Shown one piece after another: positions 15,320 through 32,157 of a stretch of 56,073 nt of DNA. Under the pieces are notes generated by a model, which searched no databases, was not told where the DNA came from, and saw nothing but the letters and a program-made list of their open reading frames with translations. The stretch spans positions 1-56,073 of the forward strand of contig JAFGGA010000212.1 in the NCBI GenBank assembly GCA_016930835.1, given 5' to 3'. A program made the position numbers and the translations under genes. This DNA is from Deltaproteobacteria bacterium (GTDB lineage Bacteria > Desulfobacterota > DSM-4660 > Desulfatiglandales > HGW-15). Position 1 is the stretch's first letter; every line of letters starts with the position of its first letter.

Positions 15320-16765
15320 CTAGGCATTCTTTTTTTTATTACTCATGGCAAGCCGGTACATCATGGTCATGGCGAATCGCTTTAAAAAAAGTAACTGGAT
15401 GGTTTCCGAAGACCTATCCAGGAGAATGGCGCTGATTTTTAATAAGATACAATCCGTCTCCGCTTTAACGGTTGCGGCACGTGTGGCACCGCTGAGGTAA
15501 GCCATCTCCCCAAAGCATTCCCCCCGGCCAAGAGCTGCGATGCTCTTCCCGTCTTTCTGCACGGCAGCCTTTCCACTCAACATAATATAGAAGGAATCGT
15601 CAATTTCACCCTCGGCCACCATGATCGCCCCTTTGGTGAATTTGACGATGCGTGCTGCGTTCATGATCTCCTGGACCTGATCTTTTGTGAAATCCTGGAA
15701 AAAGGAGACATTATGGACATAATCGATCACGGCCTCGACCTTTGCGCTTCTCGTACTGATACCCTTTAGGCCACGTAGCGCCACACGGAGGTCGTACGCA
15801 AAATCCATACACGTCTGGTAACGTTTATCAGGATTCTTGGCAAGGGCCTTGTTTACGATCTTTTCCAGGATCTCGGGAGTCTGAGGCCTTACATGGCGCA
15901 AAGGCATGGGGTTATCATTGGTGATCTTGTACATAATAGAAAAATAATTATCGCCAGGAAAGGCCTTCTCGCCTGTTAGCAATTCATAAAGTACACACCC
16001 CAAGGAAAAAACATCACTCCTATTATCCACCGGCTCTTCCCGGACCTGTTCCGGTGACATATAACTGGGAGAACCGATAAGGCCTTTGGAAAGAGGTTGA
16101 TCCGTCTTAATCTGGGCAATACCAAAGTCCGTTATCTTCACGTCTTCGGATTTGTTCAGCATGATATTGGATGGTTTCATATCCCTGTGAACAACACTCT
16201 TCTGATGGGCATAATCAAGGGCCTTGCAGGTGATGATCATGATTGCCAGGACTTTGACGATGGGTAGCAGTGTTTCCGGAGTACAGAATTTTTCAAGGGT
16301 TGGCCCATTAATATATTCCATGGTGATGTAGCAGAAATCCTTATACATTCCCGCATCATAAATAGCCACGATATTGGGGTGTAAAAGCCTTCCCGCGGAT
16401 TGGGCCTCAAGGAAAAACCGCTCACGGTACCGATCCGCCTGTTCCCCGATCACATCGGCGGCGGGCCGTGAAACCTTGATACTCACATCTCTTTTAATAT
16501 ATGGGTCCCTACCCTGATAGACCAAACCCATGCTGCCTTGTCCCAATTTCCCGATAACCTCATAACGCCCGACCGTCTTGATATCTTGAAGATCAGTAAT
16601 GAACTTGGCATCAACGGTGCTCGCCTTCCCTTCCTTGCCCAAAAATTTTAGTTTCAGCCAGCGGGTGAATCCATATTTTTTGGCATCGGTCTCTTTATTG
16701 AGCCCATTGACAGGGAAAATGGGCTGTTGTTCTATGTAAACGCGCTCTTCCATGCTTATTGTCAT
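15320..16765 (-). CDS. Ser/Thr protein kinase with C-terminal cyclic-nucleotide-binding domain
   Basis: A 481 aa cytoplasmic Hanks-type kinase. The glycine loop GKLGQGSMG starts at 72, followed by the ATP-binding lysine K97, the catalytic HRDMKPSN (D195) and DFG D213; an APE-like MSPEQV follows, so it should be active. Residues about 350-465 form a cNMP-binding beta roll with GECFGEMAYLSGATRAATV, including the phosphate-binding FGE...RAA signature. There is no PASTA domain or transmembrane anchor. This suggests a kinase gated by cAMP or cGMP, in bacteria an uncommon pairing. Targets are unknown. The start could also be the ATG at 16753. Confidence 0.92.
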   Translation of the reverse strand: MTISMEERVYIEQQPIFPVNGLNKETDAKKYGFTRWLKLKFLGKEGKASTVDAKFITDLQDIKTVGRYEVIGKLGQGSMGLVYQGRDPYIKRDVSIKVSRPAADVIGEQADRYRERFFLEAQSAGRLLHPNIVAIYDAGMYKDFCYITMEYINGPTLEKFCTPETLLPIVKVLAIMIITCKALDYAHQKSVVHRDMKPSNIMLNKSEDVKITDFGIAQIKTDQPLSKGLIGSPSYMSPEQVREEPVDNRSDVFSLGCVLYELLTGEKAFPGDNYFSIMYKITNDNPMPLRHVRPQTPEILEKIVNKALAKNPDKRYQTCMDFAYDLRVALRGLKGISTRSAKVEAVIDYVHNVSFFQDFTKDQVQEIMNAARIVKFTKGAIMVAEGEIDDSFYIMLSGKAAVQKDGKSIAALGRGECFGEMAYLSGATRAATVKAETDCILLKISAILLDRSSETIQLLFLKRFAMTMMYRLAMSNKKKNA

Positions 16766-19907: not shown

Positions 19908-22745
19908 ATGACGAAACGCATTTGGATCGGGTTAGGGATCTTAATATTCCTGGCGATTTGGGCGCTTATATCCGTTTATCCCAACTGGCTATGGTTTCAG
20001 GCCCTCAATTTTTCACCCGTCTTTTGGACGATGGTATGGAGTCGGTTCGGGTTGGCGGCGTTCATCTGGATATTTCTAATGAGTGTCCTTCTAATCAATC
20101 TCTTTATCGCCCGACGCTACTCACCCGCCGCGGAATCCCAAACGGCCTTTACACATGGCACACCGATTTCCAATAAAACGCTCAACACCCTCTTCCTGGC
20201 ACTTATCTTGATTGCCAGCCTTGTTATCGCTTCAAAAGGTTCCGCTCAATGGAACATGGTGTTGAGCTATATACACCAACAACCCTTTGGAAGCATGGAC
20301 CCCATTTTTAACAAAGATATCGGATTCTACGTCTTCTCTCTTCCATTCTATACTTTTATCAAGGACGGATTGCTCTTTATCTTTATCTTCACGGGACTTT
20401 TTATCATTATCTGGTACCTCAAAGGCGGGGGCCTTCAAATCATCAGCGAGTTTATCCAGGCTCAAGAGGGCAAATCCATGTCATTGCCTAGATTCAATAT
20501 CACCGCCGGCGCGAAAAAGCACCTCTTGATCTTGGGCGGCATCATTGTCATTCTTATTTCATTCGGATATTATTTAAAAATATACGGCATACTCTATTCC
20601 CAGCAAGGGCCCGCCTTCGGTGCCAGTTACACCGATGTGCACATCAAGGTCTTCAGCTATTGGATCTTGATCCTGCTCTCCCTGGCCTGGGCCGTGATCC
20701 TATTTTTAAACGCCCGCAAAGCCAACACCAGATCCATCATGTTGAGCGGAGGGATATGGCTGGGCGCCATTGTCTTATTCGCCTATATACTCCCTGTTCT
20801 CATCCAACAAATCGTGGTCAGGCCCAACGAATTGGCGAAAGAAGCCCCTTATATCAATCACAACATCCAACACACTCGCGATGCCTATAATCTCAATGCC
20901 ATCCAAGAAACGGATTTTCAGGCAAATGATCAGTTGACGGCCGAGGAGATCGGGAAAAATGATCTCACCATCAAAAACATCCGGATCTGGGATGAACCCC
21001 CGTTGCTCCAAACCTACAAACAGATACAATCCATAAGGCTATATTATGATTTCAGTAATGTGGACGTGGATCGTTATACAATCGAAAATCAATATCGACA
21101 AGTCATGCTGGCCGCCCGGGAGCTGGTGGCCAGCCAACTACCTCCTCAGGCCAACACATGGGTGAATAGGCACCTGACCTATACGCACGGTTACGGCCTG
21201 GCATTAAGTCCCGTCAATGATATCACATCCGAAGGCCTCCCCCTTCTTTGGGTTAAAGACCTCCCTCCCGCCATTGATATCGATATGACCATTGAGCGCC
21301 CCGAGATATATTACGGAGAAAAAACGGATGACTATATCCTGACCAAGACCAAGGCGGAAGAATTTGACTATCCAAAGGGAGACAATAATGTGTATACCCA
21401 ATACCATGGGAAAGGCGGGGTTCTCATCGGTTCTTTTATCAGACGGCTCATGTTTTCCATCGAATTCCTGGACCCGCAGATCCTTTTTACCACCTATCTG
21501 ACCCCGGAAAGCCGCATCATGTATACCCGGCGGATCGATAGGCGCGTCAACACCATCGCCCCTTTTCTTTCCTATGATAGCGATCCGTACCTGGTAGTTT
21601 CCGAGGGAAGGCTTTTCTGGATCATGGATGCCTATACCACATCCAATATGTATCCCTATTCCATTCGATCCAAACACCCGAAGAACAATCAGATGCTCAA
21701 TTATATTCGAAACTCCGTTAAGGTGATCATTGACGCCTATAATGGGGATGTTTCCTACTACATCGTGGAAGCGAATGATCCCATTATCCAGACCTATGCA
21801 AAGATATTTCCAGGTCTCTTCAAGCCGTTTGATCGGATGTCTGAGGATCTCAAAAAACATGTAAGGTATCCCAGAGACCTTTTCAACATCCAAGTAGGGG
21901 CCTATACCAAGTACCACATGGAAGACGCGCAGGTATTTTATAATCAGGAAGATCTCTGGCAGGTGCCGAATGAATTATACGGAGATAATCGTCAGGTAAT
22001 GAAACCTTATTATGTTATCATAAAACTCCCGGAAAGCGAAAAGGAGGAGTTTCTCCTGATGCTTCCCTTCACCCCCTCCAATAAGGATAATATGATCGGC
22101 TGGTTGGCGGCCCGTTGTGACATGCCGGATTACGGGGAACTATTCGTTTATAAGCTGCCCAAGGATAAATTGGTTTACGGCCCCATGCAGATCGAGGCCA
22201 GAGTGGATCAGCAGACGGAAATCTCCCGTGAATTCAGTCTATGGAGCCAGAGGGGGTCACGCGTCATAAGGGGCAATCTTCTGGCCATCCCAGTGGGTGA
22301 ATCTTTCATCTATGTGGAACCGATCTATTTGGAAGCCAAACAGGAGGAAAAAACTCCCGCGCAAAAGACGCCCCAACCTGCGCCCAGTCTTTTTAAACGC
22401 GTACAAAAACCACCCGCCTCTTCCACAACACAAGATACGAGGACGTCTGCATTGCCGGAACTCAAAAGGGTCATTGTGGGGCTGGGGAATAGGATTGTTA
22501 TGGAAGAGGACCTCTATAAAGCCCTCAACGGCGTATTGGAAGGTGAAAGAACTATAACCAGAACCTCACCCGCTCCGGTCGCTTCAATGGGAGGGTTACC
22601 CGACCTTGGCGCGCTGGCCCTGCGACATTATAACAGTGCCAAGGCTTACCTGAGTCAAGGGGATTGGGCCGGATACGGCAGGGAACTCGCAAAGTTGGAA
22701 GAGGTATTAAGACAGATGGTGCAGGAGGTTGAAGGGAAGGAGTAA
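19908..22745 (+). CDS. UPF0182 family membrane protein
   Basis: A 945 aa protein. Seven hydrophobic helices occupy the first 300 residues (for example IWIGLGILIFLAIWALISVY and SIMLSGGIWLGAIVLFAYIL). A very large extracytoplasmic domain follows, with the family hallmark VVRPNELAKEAPYI right after the last helix, then ATRAY-like NIQHTRDAYNL. The C-terminal 100 residues are a proline-rich linker plus a helical end. Widespread in bacteria and of unknown function. GAGGAGA precedes the ATG. A 16-bp inverted repeat follows the stop. Confidence 0.93.
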   Translation: MTKRIWIGLGILIFLAIWALISVYPNWLWFQALNFSPVFWTMVWSRFGLAAFIWIFLMSVLLINLFIARRYSPAAESQTAFTHGTPISNKTLNTLFLALILIASLVIASKGSAQWNMVLSYIHQQPFGSMDPIFNKDIGFYVFSLPFYTFIKDGLLFIFIFTGLFIIIWYLKGGGLQIISEFIQAQEGKSMSLPRFNITAGAKKHLLILGGIIVILISFGYYLKIYGILYSQQGPAFGASYTDVHIKVFSYWILILLSLAWAVILFLNARKANTRSIMLSGGIWLGAIVLFAYILPVLIQQIVVRPNELAKEAPYINHNIQHTRDAYNLNAIQETDFQANDQLTAEEIGKNDLTIKNIRIWDEPPLLQTYKQIQSIRLYYDFSNVDVDRYTIENQYRQVMLAARELVASQLPPQANTWVNRHLTYTHGYGLALSPVNDITSEGLPLLWVKDLPPAIDIDMTIERPEIYYGEKTDDYILTKTKAEEFDYPKGDNNVYTQYHGKGGVLIGSFIRRLMFSIEFLDPQILFTTYLTPESRIMYTRRIDRRVNTIAPFLSYDSDPYLVVSEGRLFWIMDAYTTSNMYPYSIRSKHPKNNQMLNYIRNSVKVIIDAYNGDVSYYIVEANDPIIQTYAKIFPGLFKPFDRMSEDLKKHVRYPRDLFNIQVGAYTKYHMEDAQVFYNQEDLWQVPNELYGDNRQVMKPYYVIIKLPESEKEEFLLMLPFTPSNKDNMIGWLAARCDMPDYGELFVYKLPKDKLVYGPMQIEARVDQQTEISREFSLWSQRGSRVIRGNLLAIPVGESFIYVEPIYLEAKQEEKTPAQKTPQPAPSLFKRVQKPPASSTTQDTRTSALPELKRVIVGLGNRIVMEEDLYKALNGVLEGERTITRTSPAPVASMGGLPDLGALALRHYNSAKAYLSQGDWAGYGRELAKLEEVLRQMVQEVEGKE

Positions 22746-22820
22746 AAAATCAATTTCAAAAGACCTCAATAAAAAAACTCTTAAGGGAAAGATTGTTGTA
22801 TTTCACTGAATGTCGGTCAA

Positions 22821-22887
22821 GCAGTCAGGTTTCAGCAACCAGCTTTCAATTTTTAAAAGTTTTTTCTGATAGCTGAAAGCTGACTGC
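22821..22887. repeat. 16-bp inverted repeat between convergent genes
   Basis: GCAGTCAGGTTTCAGC at 22821-22836 pairs with GCTGAAAGCTGACTGC at 22872-22887 with one mismatch; the 35-bp loop holds a second, related CAGCTTTCA/TGATAGCTGAAAG piece. It lies between the convergent UPF0182 and primase-helicase genes and could work as a bidirectional terminator or be a dispersed palindrome. Confidence 0.6.
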
Positions 22888-22896
22888 TGAACGCTT

Positions 22897-24669
22897 CTAG
22901 ATTTCCCTGAATCCCCAAAACGGATACTCCAGTACATAGGTGGCAATCTTGCCTGGGCTGTCTTCCCTGCTCGCCACCAGGTATAAAGAGCTTTCCCGTT
23001 CTTTTTTGGAAATGGGGTCCACGGGATCCCAGTCGGGCATCAGGATCATGGCGTTATCAGCACTGTACTCGATATCCCCGGACTCCTTGAATGAACCCAG
23101 ATCCGGCTTTTTGCTATAGCGTCCTCCCTCGCCCCTGGATAGTTCGGAGATCACTAAAAAAGCGACGTTTTGTTCATCCCGTATGGTCTCCAGATGCCTA
23201 AGCCATTCATCAATGCCGGTCCGACGCTCCGAGAGATCCTTAAACGGCAGTTTATGGAGACTATCCAGGACCACCAGTGTTTCTGAACGATGGGTCTCTT
23301 TCTGGATAAAATCAATATGCCGTCTCATAATATCCGGGCTCAACTTTCGATCAGTGACCACACGAAAATAGCTGAGGATGTTTTTAAATTCCGTGTAGGC
23401 CGACTCCAGTCTTTGGGCCTCATCCGGTTCCAGATCCTGGAGCCTGATCTTTTCCTGCGATAACCTGCTCAAACGGCATAGGGTACGGGTATATATTTTT
23501 TGACGTCCGTTTTCAAAGTCATAATAGATCACTGGTGTCTGTTTCCGGGCCGTCTCCGTGGATAATTGCATAAAAAAGCATGACTTCCCGGCCTTGGGCG
23601 GCCCCCCCATGATATTAATCCCCCGTATCCCGTTCAAGGCCTGATCCATTTTTTCAAAACCGGAACTCAATCCCAACAAGGCCTTGCCTTTGCCCCGCTC
23701 CAGAAATTCTTCAAAGAGTTTTTGCTCTTTTTCAACGGACGAAAAAGGAGAAAATGACTTGGACCGTTTGATCATGGTCGATACGGCGCTTCGAAAATCT
23801 TTTCCCTTGTCCCTTGAAAGTTGACAAAGGTTATACCCGCGCTTTAGATGAGACGGCCACTGGATGATCCGGGCCTTAAAGCCCAATCGACCCGCCAGGT
23901 AGCGGGCTGAGACACGGGCCTCAGGTGAGAGATTGGTCACCAAGAACACATGATGAATAAAGGCCAGCCGATCCAGATCAATGGTTTCCAGATCAGCAAA
24001 AGAAGGAACCGCAATGCCAGGATAGCCAAGCTCTTTAAGGGTCAGAAGATTATTTTCCCCTTCAACGATAAAAAGGGAGCCGTCTTCGCACCGTTCGATC
24101 TCCGGGGCATTATAGACCTGAAATGCCTGGCCAAAAAACGCCTCATTACCGTGCCAAAAATGGTCCTCTTCTTTGTTGGGTAGCCGACAGTGTGCGGAGT
24201 AGCATTTTCCGTCTTCCTGAAAATAGGGATATACCAGATACCTTCCATTGTACCCGATGTTCATCTCTCGAATAACGGATTTGGAGACACCGAATTCTTC
24301 AAAATAGCCATTTTCCTGATCCCTCATCAGACCCATAAATCTTCGAATATCCGCGGCCAGATTATTGGGGGGGAAAACAATGTCCCGAACATAGGGTTCG
24401 CGATCCGGATCAAATCCGGGGACCCTTTGAGGTTCAATACCCATAATCCTGGCAAAATACGGAGCGAATCCACCGGGTATGCAGCGATTGGAACAACGGA
24501 AATAACCCATAAAAAAGCTCTCGGGATCCATATATACCGCCAAGGTGCCGGGGTTATGATCCGCATCCGAGCGGCAAAAGGGGCAAGGCGCCTTGATCAG
24601 GGGACCCTCCTCTCTGGCCCCTGGGATATGCGCCAGATAAAATTGTCTGATTTCTTTGTTGGATGGCAT
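22897..24669 (-). CDS. Twinkle/T7 gp4-like primase-helicase
   Basis: A 590 aa protein with three parts. An N-terminal zinc module has CPFC and CSNRC pairs (C29, C32, C59, C63) as in CHC2 primases. A TOPRIM-like segment has SLFIVEGENNLLTLKELGYPG. A RecA-like DnaB-type ATPase has the P-loop GPPKAGKSCFF, Walker B LVVLDSLHKLPF and a later SELSRGEGGRY. The layout matches phage T7 gp4 and mitochondrial Twinkle rather than DnaB or DnaG. ATG 24669 is preferred over TTG 24675 because of GGGAG eight bases upstream. It follows guaA by 18 bp on the same strand, with no phage genes nearby. Confidence 0.8.
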   Translation of the reverse strand: MPSNKEIRQFYLAHIPGAREEGPLIKAPCPFCRSDADHNPGTLAVYMDPESFFMGYFRCSNRCIPGGFAPYFARIMGIEPQRVPGFDPDREPYVRDIVFPPNNLAADIRRFMGLMRDQENGYFEEFGVSKSVIREMNIGYNGRYLVYPYFQEDGKCYSAHCRLPNKEEDHFWHGNEAFFGQAFQVYNAPEIERCEDGSLFIVEGENNLLTLKELGYPGIAVPSFADLETIDLDRLAFIHHVFLVTNLSPEARVSARYLAGRLGFKARIIQWPSHLKRGYNLCQLSRDKGKDFRSAVSTMIKRSKSFSPFSSVEKEQKLFEEFLERGKGKALLGLSSGFEKMDQALNGIRGINIMGGPPKAGKSCFFMQLSTETARKQTPVIYYDFENGRQKIYTRTLCRLSRLSQEKIRLQDLEPDEAQRLESAYTEFKNILSYFRVVTDRKLSPDIMRRHIDFIQKETHRSETLVVLDSLHKLPFKDLSERRTGIDEWLRHLETIRDEQNVAFLVISELSRGEGGRYSKKPDLGSFKESGDIEYSADNAMILMPDWDPVDPISKKERESSLYLVASREDSPGKIATYVLEYPFWGFREI

Positions 24670-24687
24670 AGCCAATGCTCCCTTTCC

Positions 24688-26244
24688 CTACTCCCACTCA
24701 ATGGTACTGGGTGGCTTAGAGGAAATATCATAAACGACCCGATTGACACCTCTAACATGATTGATGATCCGGTTGGAGATTCGTGCCAGGATCTCATAGG
24801 GGACTCGCGTCCAATCCGCGGTCATGGCATCCAGGCTGTCCACCACACGGATGGCGATCACGTTTTCATAGGTCCTTTCATCCCCCATAACCCCCACGGT
24901 GCGTACCGGAAGGAGTATCGCAAAAGACTGCCACACCTTTTCATAAAGATCCGCCTGCCTGATCTCTTCAAGAAGAATGGCATCCGCTGATTGAAGGATC
25001 TCCAGTCGTTCCGGGGTGATCTCCCCTAAGATTCTAACGGCCAGACCCGGCCCTGGAAATGGCTGCCGCATGACCAGCTCCTTCGGGAGACCCAGTTCAA
25101 TACCCACCTGCCGGACCTCGTCCTTAAATAGTTCTCGGAGCGGCTCCACCAGATCCAGTTTCATGACATCCGGAAGCCCTCCCACGTTATGGTGACTCTT
25201 AATGGTAGCGGATGGGCCTTTCAAAGAGACACTTTCGATCACATCCGGGTAGAGCGTGCCCTGGGCCAGATACCGGGCCTTGCCCAGTTCTTTGGCCTTT
25301 TCCTCAAATACCGATATAAATGTCCGTCCGATGATCTTTCGTTTTTCTTCCGGGTCCGTCACACCTTTGAGGTTTCCCAAAAAACGTTCCGAGGCATCCA
25401 CCAGATGAAAGTCCATACTATAGCGGCCTTGAAAAAGTTCTGCCACCTCTTGGCTCTCCCCCCGTCTTAAAAGGCCGTTATCCACAAAAATACAAGATAA
25501 TCTCTCTCCAACAGCCTCATGCAGAAGAACGGCGGTGACCGAAGAATCCACCCCGCCGGATAGGCCGCAAATCACATGATCATCACCGATCTTTTGTTTG
25601 AGGTCCTGAATGGTCTGTCGCGCAAAAGAGGCCATGGTCCAGGACGGCTGGCAACCGCATATATGAAACAAAAAATTCTTAAAAACCTTGGTCCCGTTCG
25701 GTGTGTGCGCCACTTCGGGATGGAACTGGACGCCGAAGATTTGTCTGTTGTAATCCCCCATGGCGGCGACCGGACTGTTCCTGCTCCTCGCCAGGGAGAT
25801 AAAACCGCCGGGCATCTGATCGATTCGATCTCCATGACTCATCCAAACAATCTCTTCCTTCGTAAAATCAAAACCATGGAAAAGACCTTGTTTTTTTTGT
25901 ATCCGGATCGTTGCACTTCCATATTCCCGATCCACGGCCTTTGCCACATGACCGTCGAGGATGTGGGTAATATACTGCATGCCATAACAGATCCCCAGAA
26001 GAGGCAAATCCAGATCGAAAATACCTTTATCGGCCAAAGGGGCATCTTTATCGTAGATACTTGCAGGCCCTCCGGACAGGATAATGCCCTTGGGAGCAAA
26101 TTCACGAATCTTTTGAAGGCTGATATGAAAAGGATGGATCTCGCAATAGACCTGGGCCTCACGCACCCGCCTGGCAATCAGTTGGGTATACTGCGATCCG
26201 AAATCCAGAATCAGGATCTTTTCTTTATAGATATTATTCATCAT
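24688..26244 (-). CDS. guaA: GMP synthase (glutamine-hydrolysing)
   Basis: A 518 aa enzyme converting XMP to GMP. The class I amidotransferase domain has LGICYGMQYI (catalytic Cys) and QFHPEV; the ATP pyrophosphatase domain has LSGGVDSSVTAVLL; the C-terminal dimerisation domain ends in SKPPSTIEWE, the normal terminus. Its ATG shares one base with the guaB stop (TAATG), showing translational coupling. Last but one in the ppx-guaB-guaA-primase operon. Confidence 0.98.
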   Translation of the reverse strand: MMNNIYKEKILILDFGSQYTQLIARRVREAQVYCEIHPFHISLQKIREFAPKGIILSGGPASIYDKDAPLADKGIFDLDLPLLGICYGMQYITHILDGHVAKAVDREYGSATIRIQKKQGLFHGFDFTKEEIVWMSHGDRIDQMPGGFISLARSRNSPVAAMGDYNRQIFGVQFHPEVAHTPNGTKVFKNFLFHICGCQPSWTMASFARQTIQDLKQKIGDDHVICGLSGGVDSSVTAVLLHEAVGERLSCIFVDNGLLRRGESQEVAELFQGRYSMDFHLVDASERFLGNLKGVTDPEEKRKIIGRTFISVFEEKAKELGKARYLAQGTLYPDVIESVSLKGPSATIKSHHNVGGLPDVMKLDLVEPLRELFKDEVRQVGIELGLPKELVMRQPFPGPGLAVRILGEITPERLEILQSADAILLEEIRQADLYEKVWQSFAILLPVRTVGVMGDERTYENVIAIRVVDSLDAMTADWTRVPYEILARISNRIINHVRGVNRVVYDISSKPPSTIEWE

Positions 26245-27707
26245 TATTCGAGCCTATAATTCGGGGCTTCCTTGATGATATCCACATCATGCACATGGGC
26301 CTCTTTCAGGCCCGCTAACGTCACTTGCATAAATCTGGATTTGGTTTGGAGATCATGGATATCACGACAACCCACATAACCCATCCCGGAGCGAAGGCCG
26401 CCCACAAGCTGATAAACCACACTGGTAAGGGACCCCCGGTAAGGAACCCGTCCCACAATACCTTCCGGCACCAGATCTTTTTCCTGCTCGATATTAATTT
26501 GAAAATACCGGTCCTTGCTGCCTTCCTTCATGGCTTCTATTGATCCCATGCCCCTATAGACCTTATAGGTCCTTCCTTGAAAAAGAATGGTCTCCCCTGG
26601 GCTCTCTTCCGTACCGGCCAATAGGCTGCCGATCATCACACAATCCGCCCCGCCGGCCAAGGCCTTCGTGATATCTCCTGAGTACTTAATGCCGCCATCC
26701 GCTATAATGGGTACGTCGCTTTTTTTGGCCGCCTCAGCACAATCCATAATAGCGGTCATCTGGGGAACGCCGATCCCGGCAACCACCCGTGTCGTGCAGA
26801 TGGAACCGGGCCCCACTCCGACCTTCACTCCATCCACCCCTGCATCGATCAAAGCCTTCACTCCATCCGCTGTGGCCACGTTCCCCGCGATAAGCTCCAG
26901 ATCCGGATATTTCTCCTTAACGGCCTTGGCCGCCCGGATCACACCCACGGAATGGCCGTGGGCCGTGTCAATCACCACCACATCCACATCCGCGGCAAGA
27001 AGTTGATCCACCCGGTCATGCATATCAGGTCCCACACCGATGGCCGCCCCTACCCTCAACCGCCCCAGGTTATCCTTGCATGAATGGGGATATTTTTTGA
27101 TCTTCTCAATGTCTTTAATGGTGATCAAGCCTTGAAGTTTTCCGTCATCATCTACAACAAGCAACTTTTCAATCCGTCTTTCGTGGAGTATGGCTTTGGA
27201 CTCCTCAAGGGTAATGCCCACCTTGGCGGTGGCCAGATTTTCCTTGGTCATGACCGCCTCGATCTTTTCATCGAGATTGGTGGCGAATCGGAGGTCCCTG
27301 TTGGTAATAATTCCCACCAGGTTTCCCTGCTTCACCACAGGCACGCCTGAGATCTTATACCGCGTCATGATCTCCAGCACCTCATGAATCTTCTTATCCG
27401 GTTCAATGGTAATAGGTTTAACGATCATCCCGCTTTCGGATTTTTTAACCTTCTCCACCTCCAAGGCCTGCCGTTCAATACTCATGTTCTTATGGATAAA
27501 ACCCAGTCCCCCTTGCCTGGCGATGGTAATGGCTGTCGCCGATTCGGTGACCGTATCCATAGCGGCACTCACGATGGGTATATTGAGGGAAATGTGCCTG
27601 GACAGCCTGGTTTTAACGTCCACTTGATCCGGCAGGATGGAAGACATCTGCGGTATCAGGATAACATCATCAAAGGTATAACCGAATCGTATTTCATCTT
27701 TATTCAT
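26244..27707 (-). CDS. guaB: IMP dehydrogenase
   Basis: A 487 aa NAD-dependent enzyme oxidising IMP to XMP, the committed step to guanine nucleotides. The TIM barrel has the substrate loop [18 protein letters not shown] with the catalytic Cys, and two CBS domains lie at about 95-200 ([27 protein letters not shown]). [15 protein letters not shown] is the standard N terminus. Its start lies inside the 3' end of the ppx-like gene (8-bp overlap), and its stop overlaps guaA. Confidence 0.98.
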
Positions 27708-29080: not shown

Positions 29081-30580
29081 ATGATGACAGCCAATCCCGA
29101 TCAAAAAAATAACAACGGCTTCACAGAACTGGTCAAAACACTGGTTTCGGTTATTGAAGAAAAGGACCCCTATATGAAAGGTCATGCCGACCGTGTGGCA
29201 GCCAATTGCGTTCTCTTTGCCAGGCGATTGGGGTTTTCCAAGCTGGAGATCAATCAAATCTATCTGGCCGGGCTTCTCCATGATATCGGAATAGTCTATA
29301 TCCCATCTGAAATCACTCAAAAGGCCGGACCCCTAACAGATGATGAGATGAACATGGTCAAAAAACACCCTCTTATCTCTGAAAAAATTCTTTCCAAACA
29401 TAGCATGTTAAAGGCGATCTTGCCCATCATCCGGCATCATCACGAGTCCTTTGACGGAAACGGTTATCCTGATGGGCTGAAAGGCGAAGATATTCCCATG
29501 GGGGCTAGGATCATCAGCATCGTAAACAGTTTTGACGCCATGACCTCCGCTCGTGCCCACAGGCCTTCGATGAGCATTGAACATGCTCTATCGGAGTTGG
29601 AAAAAAACGCGGGCAGCCAATTCGACCCTGTCTTGTCAAAGGATTTCTCGTCCTTTGTCCACTCATTGAAAACAACACCCGGGGAAATCGACCCGGAAGG
29701 AAACCAAGAAGATAATCCTGATAATATTTCCTATAAATCGGGGGAAAATGGCTCCATCAAGGATATCCTCCTATCATTTGTTCAGAAATATAAGACAGGC
29801 AAGGTCGATCTACCGGTCCTGCCGAAAGTCGTTCAAGAGATTCAAAAGGTCATGAGCGATCCGACCACGACACTCAATGAACTTGCGAAGGTCATTGAAA
29901 AAGACGCCGTCATATCCGTTCGACTGATTGCCGTGGCCAATTCACCCATGTATCGTGGGACGGAAAAGATCATAACCGTGAAACAGGCCATACCACGACT
30001 CGGGGTTAAAGAGACACAAAGTATTGTCTCCGCTATAGCCAATAAAAGCCTTTACCAGGCAAGGGACCTGCGATTTAAGGTATTGATGGAGAAACTTTGG
30101 CTACATTCCCTTGCAACGGCCTATAGCGCTCGGGGAATAGCCAGAAGGATCTCGGTTTCGGAAACGGAGACCTTGTTCTTTATGGGTCTTATCCATGATA
30201 TTGGCAAGGTCTTGCTGTTCAAGGTCTTGGGAGAAATCTCATCCCCTACAAGCATGAAGGAAGTCATCGAAAACGTCCAGGAAATTCATACAAGCTTCGG
30301 TGGAACCATTCTAAGAAAATGGGGGTTTAATGAAAACTATGTTCGAATCGCATTACTCCATCAGGGCTCCCATTTTCCCAACTCAACGGCCAAAGAAGTT
30401 TTAATCGTAACCATGGCCAATGCCATTTCTAAAAAGGCCGGCTATACACTCCATGAAAGAGATCACGAGGAAACCTTGAATATGGACATGATCCATTTCG
30501 TGGGAATCTCACCGGACCATGTTGATCAGATTGCTGAAGAAACGAATACCCTGATGAAGGAAACAGGAAATATTTTTTAA
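29081..30580 (+). CDS. HD-GYP + HDOD signalling protein (paralogue 1)
   Basis: A 499 aa soluble protein. Residues 15-205 form a HD-GYP domain with H35, HD 67-68, H96, HHE 120-122 and GYP 128-130. However the HDxGK lysine is Ile71 (HDIGI) and the later conserved Asp is N149, so c-di-GMP hydrolysis is doubtful. After a linker, residues 240-495 form a HDOD domain (DLPVLPKVVQEIQKVMSDP, VIEKDAVISVRLIAVANSP) with its own HDIGK. HDOD proteins usually act as signalling adaptors. It is followed 29 bp later by a close paralogue and preceded by a sigma-54 promoter. Confidence 0.92.
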   Translation: MMTANPDQKNNNGFTELVKTLVSVIEEKDPYMKGHADRVAANCVLFARRLGFSKLEINQIYLAGLLHDIGIVYIPSEITQKAGPLTDDEMNMVKKHPLISEKILSKHSMLKAILPIIRHHHESFDGNGYPDGLKGEDIPMGARIISIVNSFDAMTSARAHRPSMSIEHALSELEKNAGSQFDPVLSKDFSSFVHSLKTTPGEIDPEGNQEDNPDNISYKSGENGSIKDILLSFVQKYKTGKVDLPVLPKVVQEIQKVMSDPTTTLNELAKVIEKDAVISVRLIAVANSPMYRGTEKIITVKQAIPRLGVKETQSIVSAIANKSLYQARDLRFKVLMEKLWLHSLATAYSARGIARRISVSETETLFFMGLIHDIGKVLLFKVLGEISSPTSMKEVIENVQEIHTSFGGTILRKWGFNENYVRIALLHQGSHFPNSTAKEVLIVTMANAISKKAGYTLHERDHEETLNMDMIHFVGISPDHVDQIAEETNTLMKETGNIF

Positions 30581-30609: not shown

Positions 30610-32157
30610 ATGACTCCGCATGAAATACATACGGATAATATCATCAAAGAATTGATCATAACATTTTCAACCATCATTGAAGAAAAAGATGCGTTTGTAA
30701 AAGGCCACATTGATCGCGTAACGGGCAACTGTGTACATTTTGCCACCCAGTTGGGCCTTCCCAAGAATGAAATCAATCAAATCTATATGGCGGCCATACT
30801 TCATGATATCGGAATGATCTACCTTCCGGAAGCAATCATCAGAAAAACTGAAAAATTGACCCCGGATGAAGTTGAATTAATGAAAAGACATCCTCTATTA
30901 TCCGAGAAGATCCTTTCTCACCTGAGCTTCTTGAAAAAGGCCCTCCCCATCATACGGCATCACCATGAGACTTACGACGGCCAAGGTTATCCGGACGGCC
31001 TGAAAGGTGACGAAATCCCTTTGGGAGCAAGAATCCTATGCATCGTCGACACCTATGATATCCTGACCTATGGTCCACCCCGCAGACCCACGTTAAGTCC
31101 CCGACGCGCCCTTGAGGTAATGGAAAATAAAGGGGGGCAGAGATTTGATAAGACCTTATTAAATGATTTTATCACGTTTATCAGATCTTCTGAACCGGTT
31201 TCAAATGAGATGAAAGGGGAAACAATAAGTCAGAAACAAGAGAAAACCACTGAGGCGGATAACACGCCAAAAGAGGCTGAAGAAATATATGATTTTGAAA
31301 AAAGCGCTGATAAAAAATTGATCCATGAAACCATTGCCAGAATTGTAAAAAAATTCAAAGAAGGCCGTATTGAACTTCCCGTTCTCTCCAAGGTGGTGCA
31401 GGAGATCCAAAGGGTTATGGGTATCCAGTCGTCAACGGTTGAAGATCTGGCCAAAGTGATTGAAAAGGATGCCGTCATATCCGTCAAGGTGATCGCCGCG
31501 GCCAATTCCCCATTTTATCGGGGGACGGAAAAGGTGCGCACGGTGAATGTGGCCATTCCCCGATTGGGATTTAAGGAAACCCAAAATGTGGTCACGGCCA
31601 TTGCCAATAAAAGCCTTTATCAGACAAAAGATACCCGGTTTAATGCATTAATGGAGAAACTTTGGCTGCATTCCCTGGCCACTGCCTATTGTGCCCGGAA
31701 TATCGCTGAGATGATGCGGATGGTGGATAGAGAAAAATTCTTCCTCATGGGCCTTGTCCATGATATCGGAAAAGTTCTACTGATCAAGGCATTGAGTGAG
31801 ACATCCACGAATATCAGCTCCTTGGAAACGGGAGATGTGGTCGAAACCATTCAAGATATCCATACCAATTTCGGGGGTGCCATTCTTAGACGCTGGGGTT
31901 TTACTGAAGACTTTGTGCGAATCGCGCTGCTCCATGAAGGTCCAACCTATACGAACTCGACCGATAAGGATGTCTTGATCATCAATCTTGCCAATAACCT
32001 GGCCTATAAAATGGGGTACACCCTTAATGGAGAGGAAACGGATGTGGAAATATTAAGCCTGGATTCCACAAGGCTCCTTGAACTGGACCCCCTAGCCCTT
32101 GAAAAAACGAGTGAGACTATAAAAAAACAGATGGAAGAGACCGCTTCGATCTTTTAG
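30610..32157 (+). CDS. HD-GYP + HDOD signalling protein (paralogue 2)
   Basis: A 515 aa tandem paralogue of the preceding gene with the same layout. HD-GYP motifs are HD 65-66, HHHE 117-120 and GYP 126-128, with Met69 in place of the HDxGK lysine (HDIGM); D147 in IVDTYD is kept, unlike in paralogue 1. The HDOD half shares long identical blocks with paralogue 1 (LMEKLWLHSLATAY, LYQ). The linker between domains is acidic and differs most. Both genes probably share the sigma-54 promoter at 29021. The gene ends 15 bp from the convergent djlA-like gene. Confidence 0.92.
   Translation: MTPHEIHTDNIIKELIITFSTIIEEKDAFVKGHIDRVTGNCVHFATQLGLPKNEINQIYMAAILHDIGMIYLPEAIIRKTEKLTPDEVELMKRHPLLSEKILSHLSFLKKALPIIRHHHETYDGQGYPDGLKGDEIPLGARILCIVDTYDILTYGPPRRPTLSPRRALEVMENKGGQRFDKTLLNDFITFIRSSEPVSNEMKGETISQKQEKTTEADNTPKEAEEIYDFEKSADKKLIHETIARIVKKFKEGRIELPVLSKVVQEIQRVMGIQSSTVEDLAKVIEKDAVISVKVIAAANSPFYRGTEKVRTVNVAIPRLGFKETQNVVTAIANKSLYQTKDTRFNALMEKLWLHSLATAYCARNIAEMMRMVDREKFFLMGLVHDIGKVLLIKALSETSTNISSLETGDVVETIQDIHTNFGGAILRRWGFTEDFVRIALLHEGPTYTNSTDKDVLIINLANNLAYKMGYTLNGEETDVEILSLDSTRLLELDPLALEKTSETIKKQMEETASIF

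Follow-up and report, generated by a model that had tools for sequence, protein, structure and literature searches.

The usual account of bacteria gives them a single replicative ring helicase, DnaB, with DnaG as a separate primase, and proteins of the gp4/Twinkle type are known from phages, plasmids and organelles. The locus studied here raises the question of why a gene with the anatomy of gp4 or Twinkle stands directly behind guaA in a bacterial genome, and of what its product may do there. In brief, the family to which this gene belongs is old and largely unannotated, it occurs in bacteria of the sulfate-reducer type, and the position behind guaA is a peculiarity of one genome.

The gene and its surroundings

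The window, that is, the whole stretch of DNA analysed here, has 56,073 nucleotides and corresponds to one contig (C56) of a 4.7 Mb genome, which is assembled in 224 contigs and 95.5% complete. The features around the gene are as follows.

22897-24669, minus strand: the helicase gene (P0001), of Twinkle/gp4 architecture and predicted to be primase-dead, an ORF of 590 aa
24688-26244, minus strand: guaA, upstream neighbour of the helicase gene, an adjacency not conserved in relatives
26244-27707, minus strand: guaB, touching guaA
27700-28686, minus strand: gene of a Ppx/GppA-family phosphatase (Pfam 1.6e-49), overlapping guaB
19908-22745, opposite in orientation to the helicase gene (convergent): UPF0182 gene, next after the helicase gene

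The helicase gene starts with ATG at 24669 to give 590 aa, and an alternative TTG at 24675 would give 592 aa. A chance ORF is ruled out by 29 further full-length orthologs with 41-70% identity to the window's protein. Hence the gene proposed in the initial annotation is real, and its strand, which was not given there, is the minus strand; the 18 bp reported between guaA and the helicase gene agree with the coordinates, both genes being on the minus strand. The same annotation saw no phage neighbours, and a Pfam scan of 28 ORFs of the window, the helicase gene included, gave no match to a phage family. The Ppx/GppA-type gene scores under the NCBIfam exo_poly_only cut-off.

Several other features of the window deserve a record. 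An imperfect inverted repeat at 22820-22888 (23-nt arms, 87% complementary, with 23 nt between them) lies in the stretch that separates the helicase gene, at its 3' end, from the convergent UPF0182 gene, and is a putative terminator-like or dispersed repeat. Two similar proteins are encoded in tandem on the plus strand, at 29081-30580 (499 aa) and 30610-32157 (515 aa); the former has HD/HD_5 and HDOD domains by Pfam, the latter clusters with it, and the pair is a putative tandem duplication of a presumed signalling protein. At 15320-16765 on the minus strand lies the gene of a 481-aa fusion of protein kinase and cNMP-binding domains.

Domain architecture and predicted fold

Three parts are distinguished in the 590-aa protein.

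24481-24585, minus strand: predicted zinc site C29-x2-C32 ... C59-x3-C63, residues 29-63, from the cysteine pattern
23752-24369, minus strand: primase-like (RPD/TOPRIM) half, residues 101-306, with the catalytic acids lost, from the fold (Z 19.5)
22900-23673, minus strand: RecA motor of the DnaB type, residues 333-590, from Pfam, fold and conserved residues

The zinc-TOPRIM-RecA architecture of the gp4/Twinkle kind, as first proposed, is borne out by the cysteine pattern, the predicted fold and the DnaB_C match taken together. The HMM check suggested along with it succeeds for the motor, where DnaB_C is matched at residues 333-546 with E 9.8e-28, but not for the other two parts: only DnaB_C and the generic AAA_25 exceed the Pfam cut-off, and the zinc and TOPRIM parts have no Pfam match. 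When Pfam is applied to the N-terminal halves of 30 full-length orthologs (the window's protein and the 29 others), Toprim_3 appears in 2 and Toprim_4 in 1, with a best E of 0.0022. PHROG 239, 'DNA primase/helicase', matches residues 25-563 with E 4.9e-27.

The AlphaFold2 model of the full protein has pLDDT 87.3 and pTM 0.57, the latter leaving the relative placement of the two halves unsure. In the PDB, it is matched best by T7 gp4 (5ikn, E 1.5e-21) over about 500 columns, with human Twinkle at E 1.6e-18. Modelled alone, the N-terminal half has pLDDT 93.5 and pTM 0.91, and its fold matches the T7 gp4 primase 5ikn_D with Z 19.5 (rmsd 3.1, 185 residues aligned), Aquifex DnaG with Z 18.7 and Twinkle with Z 17.4, the gp4, DnaG and Twinkle matches ranging over Z 15-19.5; the structural Z comparisons mainly spanned residues 307-590 and 96-306 and barely covered the zinc part. 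A sequence-profile search of the N-terminal half against the PDB returns no relative (best E 0.29), and hhalign against the DnaG-like ORF of the host genome is weak (probability 6%, E 0.0061), so that the TOPRIM assignment rests on the fold and on the alignment to the primase-helicase of phage locus L110, for which hhalign gives a probability of 98.9% over residues 182-554. On the whole, the models show a predicted domain order and fold of the gp4/Twinkle kind.

The motor carries a Walker A motif GGPPKAGKS (355-363), E386, a Walker B D469, a loop with K528 and G531, and R568; G355, P358, G361, K362, S363, E386, D469, K528, G531 and R568 are invariant in 30/30 orthologs. Judged from these residues, it is an SF4 RecA motor whose ATPase motifs (Walker A/B and the catalytic Glu) appear intact. 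The H3 motif of the window protein is SEL versus SQL, and the Lys two residues before the arginine-finger Arg of DnaB appears absent when read against the DnaB-type ORF of the host, the DnaB reference positions for both being those that we assume to be standard. Unwinding could therefore be weak, and the protein may be only a translocase or a switch. The NCBIfam score for the chromosomal DnaB equivalog is 96 bits, under the cut-off of 385.25, and that for RadA/Sms is 20 bits, under the cut-off of 403.05. The motor sequence is DnaB-like, the significant phmmer matches being DnaBs and including no Twinkle. Ordinary DnaG- and DnaB-type ORFs sit elsewhere in the window's genome.

A conserved, predicted zinc site and a degenerate primase centre

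Across the 30 orthologs, C29, C59 and C63 are present in all and C32 in 29, and zinc binding by the Cys4 site is thus predicted. The TOPRIM half is in a different state. We took the register of the catalytic residues from a comparison with phage L110, whose TOPRIM is intact; in that alignment, VEGLFD and FDNDYAG align to VEGENN and TNLSPEA in the window protein. The window protein has E203, a position variable in the family, and N207, N246 and S248 where Asp is expected. Among the orthologs, position 203 (the catalytic Glu) is E in 18, D in 10 and Q in 2; the Asp of EGxxD at position 207 is found in 0/30; and positions 246 and 248 of DxD are both acidic in 0/30, with single acids there limited to D246 in 1, E246 in 2 and D248 in 1. 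The DnaG-like ORF of the host genome is intact (VEGYTD...FDSDTAG), and the plasmid relatives L126 and L127 keep the TOPRIM acids (EGEID...LDND). As read from these alignments, the TOPRIM primase centre is lost throughout the family. The protein is accordingly not classed as a gp4-type primase-helicase, since the catalytic acids were tested for and are absent; the original 'primase-helicase' claims too much, the DxD pair being absent in all orthologs.

The loss is not accompanied by decay. In five pairs, dN/dS is 0.065-0.128 over about residues 196-275 (TOPRIM), which shows the dead TOPRIM half to be under purifying selection; over the first 300 residues it is 0.081-0.231. That the family retains the zinc site without the TOPRIM acids suggests a protein in which template recognition has survived and primer synthesis has not.

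The most divergent ortholog (L125:8801-10555, minus strand, 41% identity) comes from the sole genome of its class in the collection. One of its DxD acids is still there, as is the Gly after it (RNDEEG), and the second zinc cysteine is replaced by G; it is a possible intermediate. The class of G110, where we looked for an intermediate whose TOPRIM is still intact, is represented by one genome.

Occurrence of the family

In the window's order, which in this collection is also its class, 16 of 85 genomes have the gene (E <= 1e-25): 8 of 17 in its own family, 8 of 46 in a second family (f3) and 0 of 22 in the remaining families. This patchy presence means that the gene is not essential everywhere. 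A phylum-wide survey detects it in 17 of 395 genomes. In one other order of the phylum, it is present in 111 of 193 genomes, and among genomes at least 90% complete in two families of that order, it is found in 38/42 (one of them a 128-residue fragment) and 57/61 (three of them partial matches). A scan of named genomes gives three loci, one in a Desulfobacteraceae genome and two in Deltaproteobacteria MAGs, from which names we take the phylum to be Desulfobacterota; the other genome searches were confined to one phylum. Overall, the results show a chromosomal family of about 590 aa that is near-universal in two families of the phylum. The family ORF is shown in 31 of 32 loci, that of L119 (G355) being displaced by the crude gene caller; this locus is excluded from set A2, and L059 (256 aa, at a contig end, on what is by its length the same contig as L062) from sets A1-A3.

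In the open-access literature, titles and the starts of abstracts yielded no chromosomal bacterial protein of this kind, which is weak evidence of absence because only open-access papers were covered. A paper on recruited mobile elements names Twinkle in its reference list only (PMC8987985).

The neighbourhood of the gene

The initial annotation linked the gene functionally to guanine nucleotides and the alarmone through co-transcription with the ppx-guaB-guaA genes. For the window's genome there is a case for this, as the gap is 18 bp and the strand is the same. We searched 30 genomes and obtained 29 guaA loci, 4 of which have less than 1 kb of downstream sequence. guaB lies beside guaA in 26 of the 29, and the helicase gene follows guaA in one, that of the window's genome; none of the relatives surveyed has it there (0 of the 28 other loci), and in the other gene-bearing genomes of the order, the helicase gene and guaA are on different contigs in 15/15. 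The operon tie to guaA is rejected by this survey, and it is extremely unlikely that the gene is bound to guanine nucleotide or alarmone state in this manner. In the window's genome, the gene would probably be transcribed with ppx-guaB-guaA, or from a promoter inside guaA, as the outcome of a local rearrangement only.

Elsewhere the neighbours of the family gene are ordinary and lineage-dependent: one group has enolase-like and polysaccharide deacetylase genes there, and another has TrmFO- and Maf-like genes, the enolase, TrmFO and Maf names being our presumed ones, read from the sequence without a search. PilY1, ETF and HD-domain genes are further neighbours, and no repair or replication partner is seen in the neighbourhoods. 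We also considered, and rejected, a single-gene mobile element and a regulatory motif common to the upstream regions, such as a LexA box: nothing is shared across 30 loci, upstream and downstream flanks being compared by eye and the upstream ones also by a crude word count.

In the two near-universal families, 6 of 9 loci (L116, L117, L118, L119, L120 and L123) have, immediately upstream and in the same orientation, the gene of a protein with HEAT and cNMP-binding domains. It has 918-1680 aa by crude ORF calls, its domains were assigned by Pfam on the L117 copy, and in L119 the place of the family gene was taken from a separate search. By eye, we also take its C-terminus to have a PilZ-like motif, to which Pfam gives no match. 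This neighbour is a lead for the regulation of the family.

Ancestry

In the motor tree, which holds 13 of the 30 family members and 16 outside sequences (22 further outside matches being unused), the family members group together (100/99). A further branch (98/98) unites them with phage L110, viral L109 and two primase-helicases from plasmids, and sets them apart from eight chromosomal DnaBs; the tree has long branches and drew a program warning. The grouping of the motors with the phage and plasmid primase-helicases, and not with chromosomal DnaB, suggests an ancient domestication.

A recent arrival is the other way to read such a lineage, namely that a replication gene of a phage, prophage or plasmid was inserted behind guaA by chance. 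The architecture and motor lineage are of the phage and plasmid primase-helicase kind, the PHROG 239 match extends over most of the protein, and the position behind guaA is unique to the window's genome, all of which would fit. However, among the 235 phage records and the 748 plasmid records that give a match, none covers 80% of the protein, and a scan of viral contigs gives only four relatives at 23-26% identity; these searches thus reveal no closely similar prophage protein, and phage neighbours are absent among the Pfam-scanned ORFs. Moreover, the 29 other orthologs of full length (about 590 aa), the loss of the TOPRIM acids in all of them, and a gene tree without clear conflict with that of guaA speak against recency. 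We reject a recent prophage or plasmid origin, and consider a recently acquired replication gene very improbable.

The family tree and the guaA tree have the groups G071-G073 and G067/G078 in common, the latter pair being merely adjacent in the guaA tree; since many branches are poorly resolved in both, vertical descent is compatible with the trees and not proven. The simplest reading, as we infer it, is a single old capture of a primase-helicase of the phage or plasmid type, after which the primase centre would have been lost and the gene passed on mostly by vertical descent with losses. The 'domesticated enzyme' of the initial annotation is supported in this sense, by a conserved chromosomal family under purifying selection whose motor is nearest to phage and plasmid primase-helicases.

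Two side observations were made on the trees. The guaA of G069 (L091) is 58-59% identical and has a long branch in the guaA tree, its helicase gene being 63% identical, and a horizontally acquired guaA or a mis-binned contig is possible. Two other primase-helicase-like ORFs in relatives, L133 (G039, 558 aa) and L134 (G003, 629 aa), have very long branches in the motor tree and are probably from mobile elements.

Possible roles of the protein

Our best guess, by analogy, is that the protein is an accessory ring helicase used in repair or in restarting replication. We give an even chance to a single-copy, chromosomally conserved DNA motor of the ring type, derived from a primase-helicase of the phage or plasmid type, which would most likely act on stalled forks or on intermediates of recombination, as an accessory helicase. 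The protein would assemble as a hexamer, and its motor would load on or track ssDNA with ATP; the zinc domain and the dead primase fold would form a collar binding ssDNA or the fork, comparable to the primase-dead half of metazoan Twinkle, and make no primers, which DnaG would supply, the family protein being used beside DnaB and DnaG.

Two other functions need to be weighed. The motor might be an ATPase switch that senses DNA or nucleotides and signals via another protein, without being a helicase. The HEAT/cNMP protein, possibly in one transcription unit with the family gene in the 6 of 9 loci, and SEL in place of SQL in H3 point in this direction, but that neighbour is absent in the window and in the other 3 of 9 loci (two on short contigs), and the invariant K528, G531 and R568 fit DNA tracking, so we hold the switch to be unlikely. 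The protein might instead act against phages or in plasmid control, as a decoy or dominant-negative primosome part made from a replication protein, a dead primase with a live motor being conceivably able to poison phage primosomes. A defence function had been proposed at the outset, yet it is unsupported by PADLOC-DB, in which the best match (E 0.0064) is limited to residues 354-440, a short ATPase stretch, and no significant match extends over most of the protein; the near-universal presence in two families is unlike most defence genes, and defence neighbours are absent among the Pfam-scanned genes. This last role is very improbable. Replacement of RadA was considered separately and is rejected: of 20 genomes tested, some with the helicase gene and some lacking it, 19 have a RadA that scores above its cut-off.

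Relation to known systems and significance

The accessory ring helicase proposed here shares parts with several known systems. With chromosomal DnaB, it shares the RecA-type motor (Z about 31) and the Pfam DnaB_C match, but it has no match to the DnaB N-terminal domain, falls far short of the equivalog score, and coexists with a separate DnaB-type ORF. RadA/Sms likewise has a RecA-type ring, a similar motor fold (Z 23.7) and a Cys4 zinc site, and differs by the RadA score given above. T7 gp4 and the TOPRIM-DnaB primase-helicases of phages and plasmids (PHROG 239; L110; L126, L127) are alike in domain order, in fold over most of the length and in motor lineage; unlike the window family, L110, L126 and L127 keep the TOPRIM acids, identity is low (about 10-26%), and these proteins sit in phage or plasmid contexts; in L110, the next ORF looks from its sequence like a DNA polymerase.

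In its own genome, Twinkle serves as the main replicative helicase, whereas the window's genome has DnaB- and DnaG-type genes as well. Metazoan mitochondrial Twinkle (TWNK) also combines a zinc-like and primase-like half with a ring motor, with fold matches to 7t8c, 7t8b and 8e2l, although the motor sequence of the window family is DnaB-like. According to a review, metazoan Twinkle has lost primase activity and kept the helicase, has lost three of the four zinc cysteines while keeping primase motifs II-VI, and its primase-dead half still supports ssDNA binding and the synthesis of long products (PMC7231222). The window family keeps the zinc cysteines and loses the TOPRIM acids, which is the opposite loss. 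In plant Twinkle, the template is recognised by the zinc finger, as stated in another paper (PMC10557236). The window family is Twinkle-like by anatomy, and its function is suggested by analogy of fold. It is possible, at somewhat under even chances, that it represents a bacterial counterpart of Twinkle, in which a motor of the phage type was domesticated deep in Desulfobacterota without its primase and became a standard second ring helicase beside DnaB, for replication restart or for a DNA transaction special to the lineage.

A near-universal, primase-dead chromosomal member in two bacterial families would amount to a domestication that parallels Twinkle, with the other part of the primase half broken. 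As these are free-living bacteria with DnaB and DnaG alongside, the use of a dead primase domain to a ring helicase becomes testable by deletion. Overall, our analysis indicates that a gene for a ring helicase of Twinkle-like anatomy, predicted to be primase-dead, belongs to the standard chromosomal set of some lineages within a bacterial phylum.
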